DNA of 10,134 bases from an uncultured Eubacteriales bacterium (lineage in GTDB: Bacteria > Bacillota > Clostridia > Oscillospirales > Oscillospiraceae), in contig OMQS01000122.1 of the NCBI GenBank assembly GCA_900313295.1, forward strand, positions 1 through 10,134, given 5' to 3'. Within the stretch, counting starts at the first letter, position 1; every line of letters begins with the position of its first letter. A program made the position numbers and the translations under genes. Shown piece by piece: positions 490 to 10,134 of the stretch. Below the pieces are notes generated by a model, which was not told the DNA's origin, did not search any database, and worked only from the letters and a program-made list of their open reading frames with translations.

Positions 490-999
490 ATGAAAAAAAT
501 GACCGTTCAACACCTCACCACCGCCGCCGTCGTGGGCGCGGCCTACGCCGTGCTGTCGCTATTCGGTTCCGTGTTCGGCGTGACCTTCGGGACGGTGCAG
601 TGCCGGTTTTCCGAGGCGCTGTGCGTGCTGCCCTTCTTCTTTCCGGAAACGGTGTGGGGCCTGTTTGCCGGCTGCCTCATCACCAATCTCCTCAGCCCCT
701 ACGGGCTGGTGGACATCGTGGTAGGCTCGCTGGCCACGCTGCTGGCGGCGTTTCTGACATCGAAATGCGGCAAAAAGTGGTTGGCGCCTCTGCCGCCGGT
801 GGTCTGCAACGGGCTTCTGGTGGGCGGCATGCTGGCCTGGGAGCAGGTGGGCTTCACGGGCGCCTTCGGGGTCGCCTTTCTGGCAAACGGAGCCTCCGTT
901 GCGGCGGGGGAAGCCCTGGCCTGCTACGGGCTGGGAGCGCTGCTCTTGTGGCGTCTGCCGCGAATGGCTTTTTTCAAAAACCGGATGCGCAGAGAATGA
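490..999 (+). CDS. queT: QueT, queuosine precursor transporter membrane subunit
   Basis: This is a 169-residue integral membrane protein of the QueT (COG4708) family, thought to bring queuosine precursors such as preQ1 into the cell as the substrate-binding part of an energy-coupling factor transporter. The first hydrophobic segment covers about residues 9-33. The family signature VQCRFSEAL lies at 36-44, followed by LPFFFPETVWGLFAGC and then a NLLSPYGLVDIVVGSLATLL-like segment; several more hydrophobic helices follow. The length matches the family. The ATG at 490 is chosen because GGGAGG lies 8 bases upstream and the protein starts with the usual short basic MKK. Longer upstream in-frame starts would run through the leader and the repeat, so they are rejected. 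It stands alone with its own promoter, leader and terminator. Regulation by preQ1 is inferred. Confidence 0.93.
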   Translation: MKKMTVQHLTTAAVVGAAYAVLSLFGSVFGVTFGTVQCRFSEALCVLPFFFPETVWGLFAGCLITNLLSPYGLVDIVVGSLATLLAAFLTSKCGKKWLAPLPPVVCNGLLVGGMLAWEQVGFTGAFGVAFLANGASVAAGEALACYGLGALLLWRLPRMAFFKNRMRRE

Positions 1000-1209: not shown

Positions 1210-1506
1210 ATGGCTAAAATTTCTGCCAACTACGAGGTCGTTTACATCATCGACCCTGCACAGGGTGAGGAGGCTATTGCCGCTACCGTGGCAAAGTTCC
1301 GGACTCTGGCTGAGCAGAACGGTTCCGACGTGGTCGTGGACGAGTGGGGCAAGCGCCGTCTTGCTTACGCCATCGACTACAAGACCGAGGGTTACTATGT
1401 GCTGATGAGCTTCACCAGCGCTCCCGAGTTCCCCAAGGAGCTGGATCGTATCCTGGGCATTACCGAGGGCATTATGCGTTCCATGATCGTCTGCAAGGAC
1501 GAGTAA
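1210..1506 (+). CDS. rpsF: 30S ribosomal protein S6
   Basis: This is a 98-residue S6, a small-subunit platform protein that binds 16S rRNA as a heterodimer with S18. It opens with the typical YEVVYIIDP strand (residues 8-16), has the central DEWGKRRLAYAIDYKTEGYYVLMSF block and ends in IMRSMIVCKDE. Length is normal for the family. The start at 1210 follows AGAAGGAGG with good spacing. It is the first gene of a three-gene operon whose order (rpsF, ssb, rpsR) is standard in Firmicutes. Only 13 bases separate it from ssb. The distinct promoter and the hairpin in the leader suggest independent control from queT. Confidence 0.97.
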   Translation: MAKISANYEVVYIIDPAQGEEAIAATVAKFRTLAEQNGSDVVVDEWGKRRLAYAIDYKTEGYYVLMSFTSAPEFPKELDRILGITEGIMRSMIVCKDE

Positions 1507-1519
1507 GGGAGGCACAAGA

Positions 1520-1966
1520 ATGCTGAACAAGATCGTTATCATGGGTCGACTGACCAGAGATCCCGAGCTGCGCAGGACCGCCAGCTCCACGGCCGTGACC
1601 GGCTTCACTCTGGCAGTCGATCGGGATTTCAAGTCCCAAAACGGAGAGAAGAGCACGGACTTTATCGACGTGGTTGCTTGGCGCAACACCGCCGAGTTCG
1701 TGTCCAAGTACTTCACCAAAGGCCGCATGGCCATCGTGGAGGGTCGCCTGCAGATCCGAGATTGGAAGGACAAGGACGGCAACAACCGCCGCAGCGCTGA
1801 AGTAGTGGCCGAAAATGTGTATTTCGGTGACTCCAAGCGGGACGGCGTCGCGCCGGCCGGCGACTATGCCGCTCCTTCCATGGGCGGCGGATTCTCTGCT
1901 CCTGTGAGCAGCGGCACCGGCGGCTTTTCCGAGATCGAAGACGAGGACGGCGACCTGCCGTTCTGA
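1520..1966 (+). CDS. ssb: Single-stranded DNA-binding protein
   Basis: This is a 148-residue SSB, which coats single-stranded DNA as a homotetramer during replication, repair and recombination. The OB-fold spans about residues 1-107, starting MLNKIVIMGRLTRDPELR, with Trp54 in VVAWRNTAEF at the position of the DNA-stacking Trp54 of E. coli SSB. A short Gly/Ala/Ser/Pro-rich linker follows. The protein ends in an acidic tip, EIEDEDGDLPF, the conserved peptide that recruits repair and replication partners. The start at 1520 is supported by GGGAGG at 1507-1512. The position between rpsF and rpsR marks it as the chromosomal housekeeping copy rather than a phage or plasmid one. Confidence 0.97.
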   Translation: MLNKIVIMGRLTRDPELRRTASSTAVTGFTLAVDRDFKSQNGEKSTDFIDVVAWRNTAEFVSKYFTKGRMAIVEGRLQIRDWKDKDGNNRRSAEVVAENVYFGDSKRDGVAPAGDYAAPSMGGGFSAPVSSGTGGFSEIEDEDGDLPF

Positions 1967-1969
1967 TCC

Positions 1970-1984
1970 GTACCCCCGGGGTAC
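1970..1984. repeat. Short perfect palindrome between ssb and rpsR
   Basis: GTACCCC (1970-1976), a central C, then GGGGTAC (1978-1984) begins three bases after the ssb stop codon and 28 bases before rpsR. It could form a small RNA hairpin stabilising or partly uncoupling the ssb and rpsR messages. No T-run follows, so it is not a terminator. Confidence 0.45.
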
Positions 1985-2011
1985 ACCAATCTATAAAGGA
2001 GGAATTTTTCC

Positions 2012-2263
2012 ATGGCTATGGAACGTGAAAATAGAGCGCCTCGCGGCAATGGCCGCAAGCGTCGCAAGGTTTGCCAGTTCTGCGTGGACAAGTGCGAGCA
2101 CATCGACTACAAGGACGCCGCCAAGCTGCGCCGCTTCATCTCCGAGCGCTCCAAGATACTGCCCCGCCGCACCACCGGCACCTGCGCTATGCATCAGCGC
2201 CAGCTGACGATGGCCATCAAGCGTGCCCGTCAGATCGCCCTGCTGCCCTTCGTCACCGAATAA
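2012..2263 (+). CDS. rpsR: 30S ribosomal protein S18, zinc-type
   Basis: This is an 83-residue S18, the partner of S6 on the 30S platform. It has a basic N-terminal tail (RGNGRKRRK) and the family core [33 protein letters not shown], ending in [20 protein letters not shown]. Cysteines at 21, 24, 28 and 58 make this the cysteine-containing, presumably zinc-binding, version common in Clostridia. Many bacteria instead carry a cysteine-less S18. The start at 2012 has AAAGGAGG at 1996-2003. It is the last gene of the operon and is followed after 22 bases by a strong terminator. In related genomes further host genes would be expected next, but here the phage-like module follows. Confidence 0.97.
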
Positions 2264-2285
2264 GGCAGAGGATCAACTGAAAATG

Positions 2286-2322
2286 AAACAGACGCTGCTG
2301 TCAAAGCGGCGTCTGTTTTTTT
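2286..2322 (+). terminator. rpsF-ssb-rpsR operon terminator
   Basis: AAACAGACGC (2286-2295) pairs perfectly with GCGTCTGTTT (2309-2318). Three further pairs at 2296-2298 with 2306-2308 extend the stem, with a seven-base loop and a run of seven T at 2316-2322. This is a textbook Rho-independent terminator that insulates the ribosomal operon from the downstream element. Confidence 0.93.
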
Positions 2323-2336
2323 GCAAGGGGGACGGC

Positions 2337-2717
2337 ATGAACGGCAAAAATGCTTTTCGATATATTCCGGACAATCCCGTGGTGCTGGAGCTGACGGGGT
2401 GCGGCGCTCTGGGCGAGGTGCATGAGCGCATCAAGAGGACGTTCGGGTTTCCGGACTACTACGGGGAGAACTGGAACGCTATGTGGGACTTCCCCAACAA
2501 TAAAATGAGCAGTTCGGCTACAAGGCTGAACCGTTCATTTTCCCTGTGTGTACGGACACCGGATGTGCATGCTATTCTCTCAAATCTCATATCCGCAGAT
2601 ACAACGCGCTCCCGCTTTCGCAAAAGCAGGGGCGCATATTTTTTGATAAAAATCCGGTGTTGCACGGAAATGGGCAACAGGGAGGGCAACGAAGGGCGGT
2701 TTATGAGGGAAAGGTGA
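2337..2717 (+). pseudogene. Truncated barstar-family gene
   Basis: The frame opens with an ATG at 2337 behind a G-rich ribosome site. Its first 51 residues fit the barstar fold (RNase inhibitor family): a first strand VVLELTGCGALGEVHERIK, then the family hallmark FGFPDYYGENWNAMWD. At about base 2490, where CL and the rest of the roughly 90-residue protein should follow, homology stops. The frame then runs on through unrelated, low-complexity residues to a stop at 2717. The missing half includes the last helices and strand of the fold, so it is unlikely to bind an RNase. The break is where the phage-like segment starts, so barstar was probably cut by an insertion or by a later deletion. Whether the 126-residue read-through product is made is unknown. 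Confidence 0.7.
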
Positions 2718-2735: not shown

Positions 2736-2741
2736 TTGGTC

Positions 2742-4649
2742 ATGGCCGAAATGGAAACGGCGACCTTGCAGAGGCCCCGAATCGGGGCGGAGGAGGTGCG
2801 TCAGGCGGCGCAGATCCTGAAAAAATACAAGCAGGGCAAGGCGCATCTGGAGAGCCGCATCATCGACAACGAGCAGTTCTGGAAAATGCGGCACTGGCAG
2901 CAGATGGGGAAAAACGGGCAGGGCGGCAACCCTGCTGACCCCCAGCCTACCAGCGGCTGGCTGGTGAACTGCATCCTCTCCAAGCACGCGGATGCCATGG
3001 ACTGCTATCCGGAGCCTACGGTGCTGCCCCGCGAGGAGGGCGACCGCATGGAGGCGGGGAAGCTGACGAAGATCTTGCCCGTGGTGCTCAAGCAGAACCA
3101 GTTCAAGCGGACGTACTCCGACGCCTGGTGGTACAAGCTCAAGAGCGGCTGCGCCGCCTACGGCGTGTTCTGGGACGCCGGCAAGCTGGGCGGACTGGGG
3201 GACATCGCCATCCGGCGCATGGATCTTTTGAACCTGTTCTGGGAGCCGGGGGTGCGGGACATTCAGGACTCGGAGAACTTTTTCTCCACGGAGCTGGTGA
3301 GCAACGCCCAGCTCCTGCGGATGTACCCGCAGCTGGAGGGGAAGCTGGGGGGCGGCAGCTTCACCGTGAGCCGCTTTCTCTACGACGACACCGTGGACAC
3401 CTCGGATAAGTCCTTGGTGGTGGACTGGTACTATCACACTTCGGACGGCGGGCGGAAGGTGCTGCAATACTGCAAATTCGTGGGGGACACGGTGCTCTAC
3501 GCCACGGAAAACGACTGGCAGACGCCTACGGAGCAGCGCGTGACGGGGGTGGATGAGAGCGGCGAGCCGATTCTGGAGGAGGTGCCGGTGGGGCTGCCCA
3601 TGTACAGGCGGGGCTGGTATGACCACGGGAAGTACCCCTTCGTGTTCGACGTGCTGTTTCCCGAAGAGGGGACGCCCTGCGGGTACGGGTACATCGACCT
3701 GTGCAAGTCGCCCCAGAAGCAGATCGACCTGATGAATCAGGCCATTCTCAAAAATACGCTGGCGGCGGCGACCCCGCGATTCTTCGTGCGGGCCGACGGG
3801 GCGGTGAATGAAAACGAATACGCCGACTGGACCAAGCCCTTTGTCCACACCAACGGCAATCTGGGAAGCGACTCCATTGCCCCCATCCACACGGCGGGGC
3901 TGGACAGCGTGTACGTGGCCATTCTCCAGAGCAAGATCGCGGAGATGAAGGAGACGGCGGGAAACCGCGACGTGGCCAACGGGGGCGTGGCCTCCGGCGT
4001 GACGGCGGCCACGGCCATCGCTGCCCTGCAGGAGGCCGGCGGAAAGCTCTCGCGGAACATGATCGACGACGGGTATGAGGCGTTTTCCGACGTGGTGACG
4101 CTATGCATTGAGCTGATAAGGCAGTTTTACAGCCTACCGAGGCAGTTCCGCCTGCTGGGGGGCGAGTTTGCCAGCTACGACAACGCCGGCTTGCAGCCGG
4201 TGGCCATGAGCGACGGGGTGGAGGTATCCTATCGGGTGCCGACCTTCGACCTGGAAATTTCCGCGCAGCAGGAAAACCCCTACAAGACCATGGAGTACAA
4301 CCAGTTTGCCTTGCAGCTGTTCCAGATGGGCTTTTTCCGCGACGACATGGCGCAGCAGGCGCTGCGGTGTCTGGAGCTGATGGACTTTAAGAACAAGGAC
4401 ATGGTCATGGCCATGCTCCAGAACGGACAGACCCAGCAGCAGGAGATCCAGCGGCTGCGGGGGCAGCTGCTGCAGGCGGCGGCGGTGGTGGACGAGGCCA
4501 AGGGCACGAATCTCGCGGAGCAGCTGGCGCAGGAGTTCGGCGCGGCACCCAGAAGCGGCAAGAGCGGCGGCGCGGGCTGGAAGGGCGAGAAGCTGTCCGC
4601 CATGGAGCGCACCAGACGAAACGCACGGCAGGCGGTAAGCCCCAGATGA
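2742..4649 (+). CDS. Phage portal protein
   Basis: A 635-residue protein matching a podovirus-type portal, the twelve-fold ring at one vertex of the capsid through which DNA is packaged and ejected. Features seen are an N-terminal helical region, WLVNCILSKHADAMDCYPEP (about residues 70-90), a long mixed core with MDLLNLFWEPGVRDIQDSENFF, and the clip/stem-like stretch SPQKQIDLMNQAILKNTLAAATPRFF followed by ETAGNRDVANGGVASGVTAATAIAALQEAGGK. The C-terminus is Gln-rich and helical (about 560-600), suiting the barrel that some podovirus portals carry. The ATG at 2742 has AAAGGAGG at 2726-2733. A TTG six bases earlier is too close to it. Its stop overlaps the Prp start (ATGA), implying translational coupling. 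The assignment rests on family resemblance and position, without a search. Confidence 0.85.
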   Translation: MAEMETATLQRPRIGAEEVRQAAQILKKYKQGKAHLESRIIDNEQFWKMRHWQQMGKNGQGGNPADPQPTSGWLVNCILSKHADAMDCYPEPTVLPREEGDRMEAGKLTKILPVVLKQNQFKRTYSDAWWYKLKSGCAAYGVFWDAGKLGGLGDIAIRRMDLLNLFWEPGVRDIQDSENFFSTELVSNAQLLRMYPQLEGKLGGGSFTVSRFLYDDTVDTSDKSLVVDWYYHTSDGGRKVLQYCKFVGDTVLYATENDWQTPTEQRVTGVDESGEPILEEVPVGLPMYRRGWYDHGKYPFVFDVLFPEEGTPCGYGYIDLCKSPQKQIDLMNQAILKNTLAAATPRFFVRADGAVNENEYADWTKPFVHTNGNLGSDSIAPIHTAGLDSVYVAILQSKIAEMKETAGNRDVANGGVASGVTAATAIAALQEAGGKLSRNMIDDGYEAFSDVVTLCIELIRQFYSLPRQFRLLGGEFASYDNAGLQPVAMSDGVEVSYRVPTFDLEISAQQENPYKTMEYNQFALQLFQMGFFRDDMAQQALRCLELMDFKNKDMVMAMLQNGQTQQQEIQRLRGQLLQAAAVVDEAKGTNLAEQLAQEFGAAPRSGKSGGAGWKGEKLSAMERTRRNARQAVSPR

Positions 4650-4924
4650 TACGGGTGACGGCGGAGCCGGAGCGGCTGACGGTACAGGGGCACGCGGGCT
4701 TTGCGCCCAGAGGGCAGGACATCGTTTGCGCGGCGGCGTCGGCACTGATGCTGGCGCTTTGCGAGCGGCTGCAGGAGAAAAATCTCGTGCGGGAGCTGGT
4801 GATGCGCCCGGGGTACATAAGCGTGGCCATGCGGGGCGCGGAGCGGGAAACGGAGCTTATCAAATGCGGCCTGCGGCAGCTGGAGAGGCGATATCCCCAG
4901 TGCGTGCAGGTGCGTGAAAAATAG
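4646..4924 (+). CDS. prp: Prp-family cysteine protease, capsid maturation candidate
   Basis: A 92-residue protein of the Prp (ribosomal-processing cysteine protease) family. Host Prp trims the N-terminal extension of ribosomal protein L27 and is normally encoded between rplU and rpmA. This copy lies between portal and scaffold, the slot a phage prohead protease usually occupies. The catalytic motifs are intact: His16 in GHAGFAPRGQDIVCAAASAL and Cys28 in the same block, 12 residues apart as in the staphylococcal enzyme. The rest has the family's alternating strand-helix pattern and ends at a conserved KCGLRQLERRYPQCVQV. It has no good ribosome site and probably depends on coupling through the ATGA overlap with the portal stop. 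The likely substrate is the capsid protein of this operon, whose N-terminus has an L27-like cleavage motif. Use on host L27 cannot be excluded. Confidence 0.9.
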   Translation: MIRVTAEPERLTVQGHAGFAPRGQDIVCAAASALMLALCERLQEKNLVRELVMRPGYISVAMRGAERETELIKCGLRQLERRYPQCVQVREK

Positions 4925-4950
4925 GGCGCGCGCAAAAAAGCCTTGCAGAG

Positions 4951-4970
4951 TTCGCGTCCGCAGACGCGAA
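4951..4970. repeat. Perfect 8-bp hairpin in gap 1
   Basis: TTCGCGTC (4951-4958), loop CGCA, GACGCGAA (4963-4970). No T-run follows, so it is not a typical terminator. It could serve to stabilise or process the operon transcript between protease and scaffold. Confidence 0.6.
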
Positions 4971-5036
4971 AAATTGAAATCATTTTTCACCGCGACCTGT
5001 ACGTGGGGGAAAATACCGCGCAGGCTGCAAGTGTGG

Positions 5037-5061
5037 AATTTTGACGCTATGCGTCAAAATT
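5037..5061. repeat. Perfect 11-bp hairpin in gap 1
   Basis: AATTTTGACGC (5037-5047), loop TAT, GCGTCAAAATT (5051-5061). GC-rich complementary patches (CGCGC near 5017, GCGCG near 5065) could extend the fold. The contrast with the GC-rich genes on either side is marked. Confidence 0.65.
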
Positions 5062-5191
5062 ATGCGCGCGGCAGACTGCAATCCTTTTGTCGGGAAATTC
5101 CAAAGAAATTTTCGGCAGGTTCAGATGGCCATTTCTCCCGATGAGGGAGCGATGATACGGGTCGTGGCCTACCACGGGAAAGGACAACGCC

Positions 5192-5764
5192 ATGGAGATG
5201 GAAGAAAAGCAGGCGCAGGTCTGCCAGGAAACGGGCGAAGAGGCTCTCGACGCCGGAGAGCAGGAGGACTTTGAGACTTTGATCCGAGGAAAGTACAAGG
5301 AGGAGTTCGACGCTAGAGTGCGGAAAATTCTGGACGGGCGGCTGCGGGGCATGCGACAGGAGAACCTGCGGCTGAAGGAGCAGCAGCTGCGGCAGAAGGA
5401 GGAGGCGGTGCAGCGTCTTAGCCGCCTGCGGGAGCAGGAGGGGGCAGTGCGCAGACTGTATCCGGAGTTCTGCTGGCAGGAGGAGCTGAAAAATCCGCAG
5501 TTCGGGCGACTGGTGCTGGCCGGCGCGGAACCGGTGGAAGCCTACGAAACGGTGCATCGGCAGGAGCTTATGGAAAAGGCCATGCGCTACGCCGCAGGCC
5601 GCACCCGTAAGCAGGTGGCGGGAAGTCTGGCCACCATGGGACGGGTGGCGGAGAACGGCGGCAGGAGCATTGCTGTGACCGCCTGCGACCCCAGAGGGCT
5701 TACCAGCCGAGATCTGGCGGACATCCGGAAGCGTGTGCTGGACGGGGAGAAGATCAGGTTCTGA
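5192..5764 (+). CDS. Phage capsid scaffolding protein
   Basis: A 190-residue, highly charged, mostly helical protein, as expected for an internal scaffold that guides capsid assembly and then leaves the head. Residues 1-40 are Glu-rich and probably disordered. Residues about 30-90 are a heptad-like coiled coil (RMQENLRLKEQQLRQKEEA). The C-terminus, LTSRDLADIRKRVLDGEKIRF, matches the short basic helical end by which many phage scaffolds bind the capsid protein. It lies directly before the major capsid gene, the usual position. The start at 5192 follows GGGAAAGGA with about seven bases of spacing. Unlike the scaffold of staphylococcal phage 80alpha, its N-terminus has no Prp-type LNxQxF motif, so cleavage by the neighbouring protease is not predicted at this end. 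Confidence 0.82.
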   Translation: MEMEEKQAQVCQETGEEALDAGEQEDFETLIRGKYKEEFDARVRKILDGRLRGMRQENLRLKEQQLRQKEEAVQRLSRLREQEGAVRRLYPEFCWQEELKNPQFGRLVLAGAEPVEAYETVHRQELMEKAMRYAAGRTRKQVAGSLATMGRVAENGGRSIAVTACDPRGLTSRDLADIRKRVLDGEKIRF

Positions 5765-5819
5765 CAGGAGGGCGTTTCGGAGCGGAGAGCGTGCGCGAGG
5801 AGTGCAGAACATGGGTATT

Positions 5820-5862
5820 ACGGATTGCCACAGCCAGTGTGCGCACTGGCTTCGCAATGACA
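5820..5862 (+). repeat. Dispersed palindromic repeat, copy 2, inside the phage module
   Basis: The copy begins ACGGATTGCCACAGCCAGTG and ends CACTGGCTTCGCAATGACA around the loop TGCG. Inner stem AGCCAGTG (5832-5839) with CACTGGCT (5844-5851); outer stem ATTGC (5824-5828) with GCAAT (5854-5858). It is the same element as copy 1 near queT, in the other orientation. Compared with copy 1 it has one extra base inserted on each side of the inner stem, and these pair with each other, so the fold is kept. Confidence 0.8.
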
Positions 5863-5889
5863 GAACCTTTGCGGGGGCGTGGTGCGCAT

Positions 5890-5921
5890 CGGCGGGTCGT
5901 CGAGGACGCCGACCCCTACGG
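5890..5921. repeat. CGTAGGG-type hairpin repeat, copy A
   Basis: It runs from CGGCGGG to CCCTACGG around a stem GGGTCG (5894-5899) with CGACCC (5910-5915). The same ends and fold recur at 7315-7343 in the same orientation. It lies in the gap between scaffold and capsid genes (5765-6017), which otherwise holds no gene and only short open frames without ribosome sites. Confidence 0.6.
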
Positions 5922-6017
5922 GAGCATGATGGGGAGTGCGATGCATGATCCGGCGGACGCAGGCAGGACGCTTCGGAACGCAGGAACAGGAAAAAAATTT
6001 TAATTAAGAAAGGAAAA

Positions 6018-7241
6018 ATGACTATGGAACTGAATTATCAGATGTTTGCCGACGCAAACACCCAGACTACCGGCGGCCTCAGCGCCGAAATGAAGACTTA
6101 CTACGGCATGGAGCTGCTGGAAAACGCCAAGCCCCAGCTGGTGCATAACCAGTTCGCCGCCACCAAGCCTCTGCCTGTGGGCGGCGGCAAGACCGTGGAG
6201 TGGCGCAAGTTCGGCTCCTTTGACAAGGCGCTGACCCCCCTCACCGAGGGCGTGACCCCCGACGGCAGCGGCATTTCCGTCAGCTACATCACCAAGGAGC
6301 TGGCCCAGTACGGCGACTACACCACCGTGTCCGACATGCTGGATCTGACGGCCATTGACGACGTGGTGCTGGAGATCACCGACCGCCACGGCAACAACAT
6401 GGGTCTGACTCTGGACACCGTGACCCGCAACGAGATTCAGCAGGGCAACCAGGTCATCTACGCCCCCGTGCTGAACGCAGAAGGCACCCAGACCGCCGTG
6501 ACCAGCCGCACCGCCCTGACCCCCGCCTGCAAGATGACCAGCGAGCTGGTGGCCAAGGCCGCGACCCAGCTGAAGAAGATGAATGCGCCTACCTTTGACG
6601 GCAAGTATGTGTGCATCATCCACCCTTCCGTGGCCTTCGACCTGCGCCAGGACGAGGCATGGATCGCCGCTCACCAGTACGCTGCCGCCACGGAGCTTTT
6701 CTCGGGCGAAATTGGCGAGCTGCACGGCGTGCGCTTCGTGGAGACCACCGAGGCCAAGATCTTCTGCGGCGAGGATCTGGCGGAGGGCAGCCGCACCCTG
6801 ACGGTGAACGGCGCAGTAAGCGGCAAGAACGCCGTGACCTTTGACGGCGGCACCGTGAAGGAGGGCGCACTGGCGGGCCGCTACATTCTGGTGGGCGGCC
6901 AGCGTGCCAAGGTAGTGAGCAACACCGCCTCCGTGCTGACGCTGGACAAGAACGTCACCGCCGACGACAACGCCGTGATCTATCCCGGCGAGGGCGGCGC
7001 CGAGGGCTGCGCCGTGTACGGCTGCCTGTTCGTGGGCAAGGGCGCTTACGGTGTGGTGGACCTCAGCGAGGGCACCGAGGTCATCGTGAAGCCCCGCGGC
7101 TCCTCCGGCACCGCCGATCCTCTGGATCAGCGCTCCAGCGTGGGCTGGAAGGGCATCCATGCTGCCGCCATCCTGTACGACGAGTACATGGTGCGCGTGG
7201 AGTGCGGCTCCTCCTACTCCGGCGAGGACAAGGCCAACTAA
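6018..7241 (+). CDS. Major capsid protein, N4-gp56 family
   Basis: A 407-residue HK97-fold capsid protein of the N4-gp56 type, the subunit of the phage head. Family signatures include SAEMKTYY (about 22-29), PVGGGKTVEWRKF, the LTPLTEGVTPDGSG block, AQYGDYTTVSDMLDLTAIDDVVLE, and the C-terminal AYGVVDL and SVGWKGIHAAAILYDEYMVRVE. The N-terminus ELNYQMFA resembles the L27 peptide LNLQFFA cut by Prp between F and A, predicting loss of about ten residues by the Prp of this operon. Residues about 250-328 look like an inserted beta-rich domain before the conserved tail. The start at 6018 follows AAGAAAGGA; an ATG at 6024 is an alternative and also keeps the motif. Arg codons are all CGC or CGT, unlike the neighbouring phage genes, suggesting selection for high expression. 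Confidence 0.93.
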   Translation: MTMELNYQMFADANTQTTGGLSAEMKTYYGMELLENAKPQLVHNQFAATKPLPVGGGKTVEWRKFGSFDKALTPLTEGVTPDGSGISVSYITKELAQYGDYTTVSDMLDLTAIDDVVLEITDRHGNNMGLTLDTVTRNEIQQGNQVIYAPVLNAEGTQTAVTSRTALTPACKMTSELVAKAATQLKKMNAPTFDGKYVCIIHPSVAFDLRQDEAWIAAHQYAAATELFSGEIGELHGVRFVETTEAKIFCGEDLAEGSRTLTVNGAVSGKNAVTFDGGTVKEGALAGRYILVGGQRAKVVSNTASVLTLDKNVTADDNAVIYPGEGGAEGCAVYGCLFVGKGAYGVVDLSEGTEVIVKPRGSSGTADPLDQRSSVGWKGIHAAAILYDEYMVRVECGSSYSGEDKAN

Positions 7242-7493: not shown

Positions 7494-7694
7494 ATGGAGA
7501 AAATGAGCAAGGTTTTTCTGCCCAGAGGCAGAAAGAACGAGGAGAACTTCGTGATCGTGTCCGTGAACGGGCGCAACTACAAGATCATGAAGGGCGTGGA
7601 GGTGGAGGTGCCCGCGTGCGTGGCGGAGGTGCTGGAGAACGGCCGCATGATGGCCGACACCGCACGACGCTACATGGACACCATGGCCAACTGA
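7494..7694 (+). CDS. Small phage head-region protein of unknown function
   Basis: A 66-residue basic protein, MEKMSKVFLPRGRKNEENF followed by VIVSVNGRNYKIMKGVEVEVPACVAEVLENGRM. The pattern of a short strand, a 'VNGxxYxIxxGxxVxVP' turn and a helix ending near Asn is one I associate with small proteins that follow the capsid gene in Clostridia phages. Its molecular role is unknown to me; a minor head or decoration role is only a guess from position. The start at 7494 has AAAGGA nine bases upstream. It is 13 bases before the next gene and so probably co-transcribed with it. Confidence 0.75.
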   Translation: MEKMSKVFLPRGRKNEENFVIVSVNGRNYKIMKGVEVEVPACVAEVLENGRMMADTARRYMDTMAN

Positions 7695-7707: not shown

Positions 7708-8082
7708 ATGGGCAGAACGACGGCGGGACAGGTGCTGGCGCAGGTGGACGGCCTGCTGCCCAACGCCTACACCCGGGAGGAAAAAATGTGGTGGCTTTTG
7801 CAGGCGGAGTGCACGTTGCTGCGGGAAGTGCTGCAGCCGGCGCTGCGGGAGGAGCTGAGCGTGCCCGAGGCGCTGGAGGACGGCACCGCGCTCGCGGTCA
7901 AGGCGCCCTATGACAGGCTCTACGGCCTGTATGTTCAGGCGCAGATCCACTACGCAGACGGCGACATGGTGCGCTGCAGCAACGCACTGAGCCTCTGGAA
8001 CGAGGGCGTGGCGGAGATGCAGGCGGCGGCGCTGCGGGAAAAAGGTGGGGCGCAGGCGGCCAAATGCCTGCGTTTTTGCTGA
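7708..8082 (+). CDS. Probable phage head-tail connector protein
   Basis: A 124-residue, largely helical protein located after the capsid and small head genes, where adaptor or head-completion proteins normally lie. It reads as several amphipathic helices (AGQVLAQVDGLLPNAYTREEKMWWLLQAECTLL, then APYDRLYGLYVQAQIHYADGDMVRCSNALSLWNEGVAEM). The pattern of Tyr-rich helix, acidic turn and final helix resembles ring-forming connector adaptors. I cannot name the family with certainty. The start at 7708 has AGGGAGG about six bases upstream. The next gene's ribosome site overlaps this stop codon, so translation of the two is closely linked. Confidence 0.6.
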   Translation: MGRTTAGQVLAQVDGLLPNAYTREEKMWWLLQAECTLLREVLQPALREELSVPEALEDGTALAVKAPYDRLYGLYVQAQIHYADGDMVRCSNALSLWNEGVAEMQAAALREKGGAQAAKCLRFC

Positions 8083-8096
8083 AAGGAGGCGGAGGG

Positions 8097-9815
8097 ATGT
8101 TCTTTCCGACGCTGAAAAAAACCGATATGGAAAAGGTGACGGTGACGGAGTTCCCGGGGCTTGACAGGCGGGAGAGCGTGCGCATGGGGGGCTTCCGGAA
8201 GATGAAAAATCTTTGCTCGGAGGGGTATCCCGCCCTGCGGACACGGCCCGCCCGAGGTCTTTCGGCCACGGTGGAAAAGCCCGAGGGGCTTATCGCCAAG
8301 GACGCCCTGCTCTGGGTGGACGGACGGCGGATCTATGTGAATGGTCTGGCGGCGGGGCCGGAGCTGGCGGAGGGGGAGAAGCAGTTGGTGAGCATGGGCG
8401 CTTACCTTATCGTTTTTCCCGACAAGGTGTATCTCAACACCAAGGATCTGACGGACTGGGGCAGCCTGGAGTGCAGTCGGACGGCGGCGGTGGGGGCACC
8501 CATCAGCCTGTGCGATGCAGACGGCGCGGCCTACAGCGGCGTGGTGGAGAGCGCCGGCGCACCGGAGGAGCCGGAGGAGGACGCGCTGTGGCTGGATGTG
8601 TCCGGCACAGTGCCGGTGCTACGGCAGTTCAGCCAGGAGAGCTGGACGGCGGTAGAGGGCGTGTGTGTGAAGGTGCAGGCCACCGGCCTGGGCGAGGGCT
8701 TCGCCGCCGGCGACGGCGTGACGATTTCTGGCTGCAGCGTGGAGCGGCTCAACGGCGAAACGGTGCTGCGTGCGGTGGGGGAGGACTGGGTGGCCTTTTC
8801 CGGCGCCGTGGCCGGCAGCACTGCGCTGAAGGCGGCCGTGACCGTCAGCCGCACCGTGCCGGAGATGGACTATGTGGTGCAGAGCGGCAACCGGCTCTGG
8901 GGCTGTAAGTACGGCATGGCGGACGGCAGAGCCGTGAACGAGATCTACGCCAGCAAGCTGGGGGATTTCAAAAACTGGCGGTGCTTTGAGGGGCTCGCCA
9001 CAGACAGCTATGCGGCGGCGCGCGGCTCCGACGGAGCTTTCACCGGCGCGGTGAGCTATCTGGGCAACCCTATTTTCTTCAAGGAGCACTGCATAGAGCG
9101 GGTGTATGCCGCCAGCCAAGGCGCGCACCAGATCGTGACCACGGAGTGCAGCGGCGTGCAGCAGGGCAGTGCCAAGAGCCTGCAGGTGGTGGGCGGCGTG
9201 CTGATGTATCTCTCGGACGAGGGGGTGCAGGCCTTTGACGGCAGTCTGCCGGTGACGGTGTCGCAGGCGCTGGGGGAGAAACGGCTCCACGGCGGCGTGG
9301 CCGGCACATGGCGGGGGAAATACTACCTCTCGGCGCTGGAGGAGGACGGTACGCCCACCCTGTTGGTGTATGACAGCGAAAGGAGCCAGTGGCACCAAGA
9401 GGACGGGCTGCGGGCCGTGGGCTTTGCCTGCAAAGGCTCGGAGCTTTACTGCCTCGGTACCGATGGGAAGCTCTGGAGCCTCCGCGGTGAGAGCGGCGAA
9501 GCGGAGGAGAGCTTTTCGTGGATGGCCGAAAGCGGGGAGCTGGGCTTGCAGAGCCCCCAGCGCAAGCGGCTGACAAAGCTGCTGCTGCAAATGCGGCCGG
9601 AGCGGGGCAAGACCGTGACGGTGTGGGTGAGCTACGACCGAGGCGCCAGCTGGCAGAAGCAGGGACAGTTGACGGGAAACGGCAGCCTGCGGGGGCAGGC
9701 GGTGGCCGTGCGCCCCAGACAGTGCCGCTATTTGCGGCTGAAGCTGGAGGGCAGCGGACAGTGCGTGCTGTTTGCCCTGACAGCGCTGTATGAAAGAGAC
9801 GGTGACGGGTTGTGA
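8097..9815 (+). CDS. Beta-propeller-like phage tail or stopper protein
   Basis: A 572-residue beta-rich protein. An N-terminal block with FPGLDRRESVRMGGFRKMKNL leads to a strand-turn repeat region (VDGRRIYVNGLA, VFPDKVYLNTKDLTDWGSLE). An inserted domain (about 145-260) follows. A second repeat block (VVQSGNRLWGCKYG, ASKLGDFKNWRCFEG, GNPIFFKEHCIERVYAAS, LMYLSDEGVQAFDGS) is typical of a propeller. The C-terminus (VWVSYDRGASWQKQG ... LRLKLEGSGQC) looks like a small beta-sandwich. Such proteins form the tail tube plug in podoviruses (compare P22 gp10) or a tail hub. The start at 8097 is preferred over an upstream ATG at 8064 because AAAGGAGG (8082-8089) lies seven bases before it; the longer form would overlap the previous gene. 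The exact role is inferred. Confidence 0.7.
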   Translation: MFFPTLKKTDMEKVTVTEFPGLDRRESVRMGGFRKMKNLCSEGYPALRTRPARGLSATVEKPEGLIAKDALLWVDGRRIYVNGLAAGPELAEGEKQLVSMGAYLIVFPDKVYLNTKDLTDWGSLECSRTAAVGAPISLCDADGAAYSGVVESAGAPEEPEEDALWLDVSGTVPVLRQFSQESWTAVEGVCVKVQATGLGEGFAAGDGVTISGCSVERLNGETVLRAVGEDWVAFSGAVAGSTALKAAVTVSRTVPEMDYVVQSGNRLWGCKYGMADGRAVNEIYASKLGDFKNWRCFEGLATDSYAAARGSDGAFTGAVSYLGNPIFFKEHCIERVYAASQGAHQIVTTECSGVQQGSAKSLQVVGGVLMYLSDEGVQAFDGSLPVTVSQALGEKRLHGGVAGTWRGKYYLSALEEDGTPTLLVYDSERSQWHQEDGLRAVGFACKGSELYCLGTDGKLWSLRGESGEAEESFSWMAESGELGLQSPQRKRLTKLLLQMRPERGKTVTVWVSYDRGASWQKQGQLTGNGSLRGQAVAVRPRQCRYLRLKLEGSGQCVLFALTALYERDGDGL

Positions 9816-9820
9816 ACGTG

Positions 9821-10134
9821 ATGACTATGCCCCCGGCGCCTACGGGGACGCTGAGTCAGCAGGTGCAGAAGCAGTACGCTTACCTGTTTCAGCTGGCGCA
9901 GATGCTGAACCGAGCCGCAGAGCAGGCGGAGCAGCAGCCGCAGACGCAGACGGTGCAGAAGCCCGTGCAGGCGGCGCAGGCGCAGACGGTGGTGGAGCTG
10001 AAAAGTCTCATCGTGAAGTCGGCGGACGCCGTGTGCAAGGAGATGGATCGGCTGGAAACGGAGCTGAAGGGCAGCTATGTAGCGGTGTCGGAGTTCGGGA
10101 CGTATCTGGAGAGGATCAGCCAGGAGATCGAGGC
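9821..10134 (+). CDS. Gln-rich phage tail or stalk protein, N-terminal part (runs off window)
   Basis: An open frame reaches the right edge without a stop. The visible 104 residues start MTMPPAPTGTLSQQVQKQYA, then a helical segment, a low-complexity Gln/Ala/Thr stretch (about 35-55), then KSLIVKSADAVCKEMDRLETELKGSY and SEFGTYLERISQEIEA, a predicted coiled coil. A stalk, fibre or adsorption protein downstream of the propeller gene fits this shape. The start is uncertain: a GTG at 9812 overlaps the previous stop (GTGA) as portal and Prp do, and ATGs at 9821 and 9827 are alternatives. No strong ribosome site precedes any of them, so coupling to the upstream gene is likely. Confidence 0.6.
   Translation, partial: MTMPPAPTGTLSQQVQKQYAYLFQLAQMLNRAAEQAEQQPQTQTVQKPVQAAQAQTVVELKSLIVKSADAVCKEMDRLETELKGSYVAVSEFGTYLERISQEIE

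Follow-up and report, generated by a model that had tools for sequence, protein, structure and literature searches.

We analyzed a 10,134-nucleotide stretch of DNA from an uncultured Eubacteriales bacterium of the Oscillospiraceae (GenBank assembly GCA_900313295.1, contig OMQS01000122.1; hereafter the window, meaning the whole stretch at this length), and found that it encodes a cysteine protease of the Prp family beside a phage-type capsid gene, and that the capsid protein begins with a motif resembling the Prp cleavage site of ribosomal protein L27. The best explanation, to which we assign a probability of roughly 60%, is a vertically inherited element similar to a gene transfer agent (GTA), with a private Prp that matures its capsid. 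The window would then hold the head module of a phage-derived element passed down vertically in an Oscillospiraceae-type gut genus, much like a podovirus-like GTA, and Prp would be the maturation protease of the element itself. It would cut the major capsid protein after LNYQMF during capsid assembly and thereby remove ten N-terminal residues (eight from the alternative start), in parallel to the action of host Prp on phage 80alpha. We document here the enzyme family, the intact catalytic dyad, the conserved site, the coupling of the site to Prp, the agreement of the element with the host phylogeny, its purifying selection, and the gene content, and the explanation builds on these. The features that carry the argument are as follows.

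2742 to 4649, plus strand: P22-like portal protein, the first element gene in the window (PF16510, E value 1.6e-23, and phrog_156, 2.8e-73, both for the open reading frame (ORF) at 2736 to 4649).
4646 to 4924, plus strand: Prp-type cysteine protease of 92 residues with His16 and Cys28 (PF04327 Peptidase_Prp, 9.5e-14; phrog_4478, 'peptidase').
5192 to 5764, plus strand: scaffold-like protein of 190 residues without a Prp site (phrog_13908, a family of unknown function, 6.1e-27; named scaffold from its position).
6018 to 7241, with an alternative start at 6024, plus strand: major capsid protein of the N4-gp56 family (TIGR04387, 2.4e-78; phrog_1357, 5.6e-78).
6030 to 6050, plus strand: L27-like Prp site LNYQMFA, read from the sequence, with the predicted cut between F10 (ending at 6047) and A11 (starting at 6048).

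The window protease scored 51.8 bits against the PF04327 profile, compared to a cut-off of 27, and the catalytic His16 and Cys28, spaced 12 residues apart, were invariant across 26 aligned Prps. Its gene overlaps the 3' end of the portal gene and sits between portal and scaffold. A preliminary description of this DNA had noted an intact Prp, with these two residues, in the slot of a prohead protease, and the family match, the invariant dyad, and the location between portal and capsid all confirmed this. The protein did not score as a host-type Prp, since the Prp equivalogs of NCBIfam gave 20 to 38 bits against cut-offs of 133 to 225, and the gene does not lie between rplU and rpmA. We rejected the idea that it is the host gene, since the L27-linked copy sits on another contig; there, a second Prp adjoins the gene for L27, which starts MLYIGLQFFA (a linkage looked at in the window genome, G000, only). 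A Prp profile search of solved structures gave five matches, with 4peo/7kld labeled as a phage-related ribosomal protease, 7jvs as Prp, and the remaining ones (2g0i, 2idl, 1s12) as hypothetical; the same structures gave no match when the window Prp was used as a single query. A control search gave no Prp match in Escherichia coli. Two proteins, P0050 and P0053, are reciprocal chimeras of Prp and SSB with the junction near a common AERET word, and are probably artefacts of metagenome assembly.

The capsid scored 263.7 bits against TIGR04387, for which the curated cut-off is 60, and is thus a member of the N4-gp56 family. Its ORF begins MTMELNYQMFADANTQ, which reads MTMELNYQMF followed by A, and LNYQMFA shares the L, N, Q, F, and A of the L27 site LNLQFFA, a match already pointed out in the preliminary description and seen again at 6030 to 6050. 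Motif counts in the genus were made on 19 capsids and 18 scaffolds, all of the close type (capsid at least 79% identical to that of the window). A strict site within the first 45 residues was present in 18 of these 19 capsids, above the level of chance: among 38,000 N-termini that had been shuffled, 1375 had one, and among the other called proteins, 13 of 485 did. The core of the site was kept while the surrounding residues varied (NYQMFA, DLQLFA, DIQLFA, NLQMFA, HLQLFA, and others), and conservation peaked at the Q-x-F-A residues. Five of the 18 close-type scaffolds had the strict site; G001 and L099 each showed a variant. Given this difference between capsids and scaffolds, the capsid appears to be the constant target and the scaffold site to have been lost often, including in the window, where the ORF at 5192 to 5764 indeed lacks the motif, as had been stated before. 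The lineage has thus apparently lost most of its scaffold Prp sites, while other Prp phages usually have the scaffold as a second target.

Capsid relatives for a control inside the N4-gp56 family were gathered with three queries, namely A2, which omits the N-terminus (best 80 of 422), a Bacillus phage capsid, and the window capsid. The 97 capsid loci with a readable start were reduced to 70 distinct ones. Of these, 45 had Prp and 13, which offered at least 2.5 kb upstream, had none; the other 12 (less than 2.5 kb upstream, no Prp seen) stayed undecided and were omitted from the two-by-two table, and 49 further fetched loci stand outside the counts. The strict site was found on 24 of the 45 capsids with Prp and on 0 of the 13 without (Fisher, 3.2e-4), and a relaxed pattern on 42 of 45 and 0 of 13 (Fisher, 1.8e-10; background in body windows, 3 of 70), where the strict count is the fairer test because the relaxed pattern was written after the variants had been seen, and where both Fisher values overstate independence because the loci share ancestry and the Bacillus phage query supplied nine of the 13 that are without Prp. 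The preliminary description had offered to give up the pairing if it proved no commoner than for random capsids; by the strict counts above, it is commoner. Viral contig L224, a 79% relative of the window element, amounts to a natural knock-out, as portal, scaffold, and capsid are present together with neither Prp nor site. In G011, a 78% complete genome from the genus of the window, the capsid starts in the same siteless way, and the single Prp match is host-type by its score. Prp and site have evidently been lost together in this one lineage of the element (L224, G011), and it is the most telling case. In five annotated phages that share this capsid family (Pascal, API480, Y3, FlowerPower, and StenR_269), neither the capsid nor the protein in the scaffold position had the site, and none of the five was among the matches listed in the Prp searches. 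We therefore rejected the view that the pairing is due to chance or is universal, since same-family capsids without Prp, in contigs and annotated phages alike, have no site.

The pairing was also counted in viral contigs gathered with the window Prp as query, where the best 80 of 99 relatives were reduced to 62 distinct loci by removing near-identical Prps, and to 54 by asking for at least 1.5 kb downstream. In 51 of these 54 loci, a strict L27-like site either followed a fused Prp domain or lay close to the N-terminus of a protein encoded on the same strand no more than 5 kb downstream, and 37 had two or more sites; the corresponding controls gave 6 of 54 for antisense and 3 of 54 for upstream same-strand ORFs. 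A tblastn search with two other phage Prps gave 29 and 28 matches among 50,697 records, with Enterococcus, Lactococcus, Oenococcus, Lactobacillus, Latilactobacillus, Brochothrix, and Dorea as named hosts and one record labeled Staphylococcus. In nine of the ten annotated phages and prophages inspected, Prp lies between portal and scaffold, in some with one or two extra genes alongside; in DO134P1, unnamed genes occupy the place of the portal before Prp. These nine carry the site on both scaffold and capsid (two of the capsids as variants), and seven carry the site or a variant on the tail-tube protein. The phages with a phrog_4478 'peptidase', i.e., Enterococcus phage phiFL3A, Lactococcus phages TP712 and PLgT-1, Oenococcus phage phiS11, Lactobacillus phage Lj965, and Brochothrix phage BL3, are like the window in the position of Prp and have sites on scaffold and capsid, but differ in having a longer set of tail genes and in the naming of their Prp, which, where annotated at all, is called a peptidase, a ribosomal protein, hypothetical, or unknown.

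Judged from these counts, the pairing of Prp with its site is genuine and general, and the two are coupled in evolution. The preliminary description had noted it for this one phage; Prp and site do belong together, and the pairing extends beyond this locus, being common in viral contigs and among phages that infect Firmicutes. The prediction made there that the capsid is the sole target stands for the window and fails in relatives, where the scaffold is usually a second target, and we rejected the general form, that only the capsid is ever a target, since scaffold and tail proteins bear the site in relatives. Related phages would thus apply Prp to scaffold, capsid, and tail-tube proteins, and some would fuse it to the scaffold with the site at the joint. 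In nine viral loci, Prp is joined in this way to the next, scaffold-like protein, giving one long protein that has the site behind the Prp domain (L020, L025, L034, L041, L042, L057, L061, L068, and L073). In L034 and L068 there is no start-type codon between domain and site, so that self-release by cutting is the simple reading, and the two would resemble a self-releasing protease-scaffold polyprotein. Fusions of this kind make maturation by Prp testable in a single construct. Prp was discovered through a staphylococcal phage that borrows the enzyme of its host. Phages and a phage-derived element have their own Prp with matching scaffold, capsid, and tail sites, and Prp therefore looks like a general prohead protease of phages with Firmicute hosts.

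Host Prp has been reported to cut L27 as well as the capsid and scaffold proteins of 80alpha, the latter two between F and A, and in this phage the N-terminus of the scaffold was needed while its cutting was not, and cutting of the capsid was dispensable (PMC5744158). Host Prp (MEROPS C108) and 80alpha are like the window in the protease family, the dyad, the N-terminal F/A site, and the capsid substrate; however, the window enzyme is encoded beside the capsid rather than beside L27, whereas 80alpha borrows the host enzyme (PMC5744158, PMC9405229). A review of Prp gives the protease of phage Cp-1 as the only other member of its clan (clan CR), and calls Cp-1 staphylococcal (PMC9405229), while the sequence record is that of a Streptococcus phage. 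Like the window enzyme, the Cp-1 protease is described as a phage-encoded enzyme of the Prp clan that removes the capsid N-terminus (PMC9405229). We took orf13 of Cp-1 (L101, 8805 to 9119, annotated as hypothetical) to be this protease from its GHG...C pattern; it differs from the window Prp in being very divergent, and the Cp-1 capsid is without an LQxFA-like start. A Prp has also been reported for Shewanella phage Y11 (PMC10846135). Searches of one literature library on Prp encoded by phages, on its sites, and on Prp in GTAs gave no paper whose title or opening lines of abstract report the pairing seen here.

With respect to distribution, the window capsid was matched in 25 of 32 genomes of the genus, including 13 of the 14 near-complete ones. 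The close type occurred in 19 of the 32, with one close copy per genome, and more distant types in six; G004 and G014 had a close-type TerL only. Other genera of the family gave 31 matches among 300 sampled genomes, with capsid identities of no more than 56% (60% along a single piece of 83 residues). By their records in the scan of genome contigs, the carriers were uncultured Oscillibacter sp., Firmicutes bacterium CAG:176, and metagenome-assembled genomes (MAGs) of Oscillospiraceae or other Clostridia type. The close-type element is a run of 12 to 13 kb in the order small protein, TerS-like protein, TerL, portal, Prp, scaffold, and capsid, followed by proteins of 66, 124, 572, and about 240 residues, a fibre-like protein (DUF859, Gp10_C), and, last, one that carries a peptidoglycan-binding domain. 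Matches to helix-turn-helix families were obtained for the TerS-like protein. Synteny was taken from a codon-based gene caller, which missed some small genes (e.g., Prp in G017, recovered by tblastn), and an element-own Prp was present in every close-type genome in which the portal-capsid stretch was read. For none of the 13 G001 genes, scanned directly or via window homologues, was the main hit a family of integrases, replication proteins, or repressors; gene content in the genomes beyond G001 was taken by gene family, and the additional ORFs that G002, G003, and G023 have within the run fall outside the scan. The nearest recombinases among the matches listed were a tyrosine integrase and a serine recombinase in G001, about 7.8 kb away on either side and beyond host genes, and none of the listed matches lay closer than this in any close-type contig.

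The host flanks are partly common to the genomes, with a 337-residue protein downstream in six, and with neighbors that we take to be a NUDIX gene (11 genomes) and smpB plus a peptidyl-prolyl isomerase gene (six genomes). In the window genome, TerL lies on contig C112 near this putative NUDIX gene, and the module in the window runs from the portal onward behind rpsR. Such a split of TerL from the head genes was seen from both sides in G027 and from one side in G004, G011, G014, and G017, where misassembly is possible for any single MAG. A distant form of the element in G012, G016, G022, and G028 (L162, L163, L164, L166, and L199) has upstream neighbors common to all four genomes and a repressor-like gene, together with genes that we take to be a holin and an amidase; no integrase was present in the stretches read of these four.

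Inheritance was assessed by comparing protein distances of the element with those of RpoB across 11 to 14 genomes. Spearman coefficients were 0.43 for TerL, 0.41 for portal, 0.40 for scaffold, 0.38 for capsid, 0.71 for the 572-residue protein, and 0.28 for Prp, and the observed value was reached in 7, 25, 13, 31, 0, and 211 of 5000 permutations, respectively. The element and RpoB trees agreed on several groups, for example in placing G000, G002, and G025 with G001. Between G000 and G002, the ratio of nonsynonymous to synonymous substitution rates (dN/dS) was 0.10 for TerL, 0.13 for portal, 0.20 for Prp, 0.23 for scaffold, and 0.13 for capsid, compared to 0.05 for RpoB, at dS values of 0.5 to 0.9, and the close-type hits of TerL and capsid were free of inner stops. 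These results fit an element that is maintained and vertically inherited better than a decaying prophage. Vertical inheritance and purifying selection, as expected of a GTA, were thus found in the RpoB congruence, the dN/dS values, and the partly common flanks, and the particle genes expected of one (TerS-like, TerL, portal, Prp, scaffold, capsid, and fibre-like genes) are present in G001. From its genomic features the element looks like a GTA, with a putative particle and DNA-delivery function, and we infer cleavage of the capsid, its timing, the production of particles, and the packaging of host DNA. The preliminary description had a phage bringing its own Prp; the enzyme is indeed encoded beside the capsid, and the carrier looks GTA-like and vertically inherited rather than like a free phage.

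Several observations weigh against this explanation. On the side of the enzyme, a separate full-length Prp match of at least 69 bits was found in 30 of the 32 genomes and could cut the same site, and capsid cleavage may matter little, since 80alpha is reported to be viable with a pre-cleaved or uncleavable capsid (PMC5744158). The site is also less regular than the pairing would suggest: 12 of the 18 close-type scaffolds have no recognizable site, 21 of the 45 Prp-bearing capsids in the N4-gp56 control show variants only or nothing, and no strict site lies downstream of Prp in viral contigs L015, L054, and L085 (L085 has NLRLFD and NLHLFD), while the scaffold of viral contig L228 has a site with no Prp found nearby. 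Among the annotated phages, the capsid variants are QVFT in DO134P1, which also has QVFS on a tail protein, and QRFS in TP712, the tail-tube proteins of TP712 and PLgT-1 are without a site, and in the tenth record, Enterococcus phage EC99P2, Prp lies amid genes annotated as hypothetical, away from the structural genes. Seven of the nine Prp-scaffold fusions have a start-type codon before the site, which makes a separate start possible. As for inheritance, five of the 32 genomes had no credible TerL or capsid match (one weak TerL hit), and one of the five is 97% complete; the Prp gene was the weakest follower of the host tree by the permutation counts above; element and RpoB trees disagreed on some weakly supported branches, e.g., G024; and single-gene dN/dS values reached 0.62 over seven chosen genome pairs. 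Two frame breaks occurred among 132 gene-by-genome tblastn hits, both in G003 (scaffold and 572-residue genes, two frames each), and the capsid is short of about 75 residues, in frame, in G007, G009, G013, and G019. Finally, the separate contig of TerL in the window genome means that the element could be broken or misassembled.

These points bear on three other ways of reading the data. An ordinary temperate phage or a decaying prophage, with Prp maturing the capsid, in a genus that often meets this phage, could account for the modules with about 40 to 56% capsid identity in a minority of other-genus genomes (the 31 matches), for the prophage-like appearance of some copies within the genus, for a window module that is without a terminase and abuts a broken barstar gene, for the two frame breaks in G003, and for the PHROG families that match the main element genes. 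It is harder to reconcile with the single close copy carried by each of 19 of the 32 genomes, the RpoB congruence, the common neighbors and low dN/dS, the large identity gap to other genera, or with nearest listed recombinases that are about 7.8 kb off, in G001 only, and beyond host genes, and we consider it unlikely, though a serious candidate. The separate high-scoring Prp in 30 of 32 genomes (in G005, a hit is cut off by a contig end) leads to the proposal that host Prp does the cutting, as in 80alpha (PMC5744158), with the element Prp being redundant or aimed elsewhere, e.g., at host L27 during particle production, a target that the preliminary description had also thought possible. The similar site on the window host L27 and the Prp-less scaffold site of L228 point the same way. 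This proposal predicts that sites are equally common without Prp, yet none of the 13 Prp-less capsids has one, and site and Prp vanish together in L224; moreover, the Prp search of G018 (98% complete) gave element-type scores only, which may be a real loss, although a MAG can miss a gene. We regard host cutting as quite improbable. The same 30 genomes did not bear out the earlier claim that the phage no longer depends on the host enzyme, and our guesses as to why a second Prp is kept are a different substrate preference or its dosage in the producing cell.

It could also be that the N-terminal motif serves Prp or a chaperone as a signal for docking or folding, and that cleavage is incidental, as the 80alpha scaffold, with its required N-terminus and dispensable cleavage, might suggest (PMC5744158). 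Conservation is, however, centered on Q-x-F-A, the catalytic dyad is invariant, and sites stand at the joints of Prp-scaffold fusions, where cutting is most sensible, so that we see this as the remotest of the readings considered here. We thus retain the vertically inherited, GTA-like element with its own capsid-maturing Prp. A more ambitious version would make it the so far unrecognized GTA of an Oscillospiraceae genus, a podovirus-like particle operon with TerL and head loci split in some species and a private Prp, and would make Prp plus site a portable, sometimes self-cleaving cassette common to phages, their domesticated descendants, and the ribosome; for this version we see the chances as even.

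The closest described system is FpGTA, a podovirus-like, GTA-like system of Faecalibacterium with two loci (Borodovich et al. 2026, PMC12946183). The same work reports GTA-like packaging in an Oscillospiraceae MAG (Onthomonas), with a strong candidate operon only in a Faecalibacterium MAG among the MAGs searched (PMC12946183). FpGTA differs from the window element in its genus, and its main text reports no protease and contains neither 'Prp' nor 'prohead' (PMC12946183). If the window element is a GTA, it would provide a gene cluster for the GTA-like packaging seen in gut Oscillospiraceae without an identified operon (PMC12946183), and Prp would be an enzyme whose loss could be used to probe the role of the particles. 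In another family of the order, nine f17 loci (L345 to L353) have TerL and portal proteins homologous to those of the element and no match to the window capsid. Together with L354 to L358, these TerL-portal clusters have a TerL about 40% identical to that of the element and no capsid of its family, and the f17 loci, all nine of which were read, gave a single weak Prp match at most; they are possibly FpGTA-like elements.

The remaining features of the window are listed below.

490 to 999, plus strand: ORF of 169 residues.
1210 to 2263, plus strand: three host genes that we take to be rpsF, ssb, and rpsR.
2283 to 2717, plus strand: barstar fragment joined to unrelated sequence (PF01337, 3.9e-11 on the longer ORF at 2223 to 2717; called start at 2283).
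7494 to 7694, plus strand: conserved element protein of 66 residues (phrog_15239, 5.5e-11), syntenic in related genomes.
7708 to 8082, plus strand: conserved element protein of 124 residues, perhaps for head-tail joining by its position (phrog_12105, a family of unknown function, 2e-16), syntenic.
8097 to 9815, plus strand: virion protein of 572 residues (phrog_511, 'internal virion protein', 2e-48 for the ORF at 8064 to 9815).
9812 to 10134, plus strand: 5' part of an element protein of about 240 residues, interrupted by the window end and homologous to a 241-residue protein of G001.

The barstar gene is cut down to 39 of 96 profile positions (4 to 42 of PF01337) at the joint between host DNA and element in the assembly. 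No terminase gene lies within the window, and a repeat search of the window gave nothing clear. The non-coding gaps between element genes at 4925 to 5191 and 5765 to 6017 are long and differ in length among genomes, and one of them holds a stretch resembling a host intergenic repeat, ATTGCCACAGCCAGTGTGCGCACTGGCTTCGCAATGACAG.

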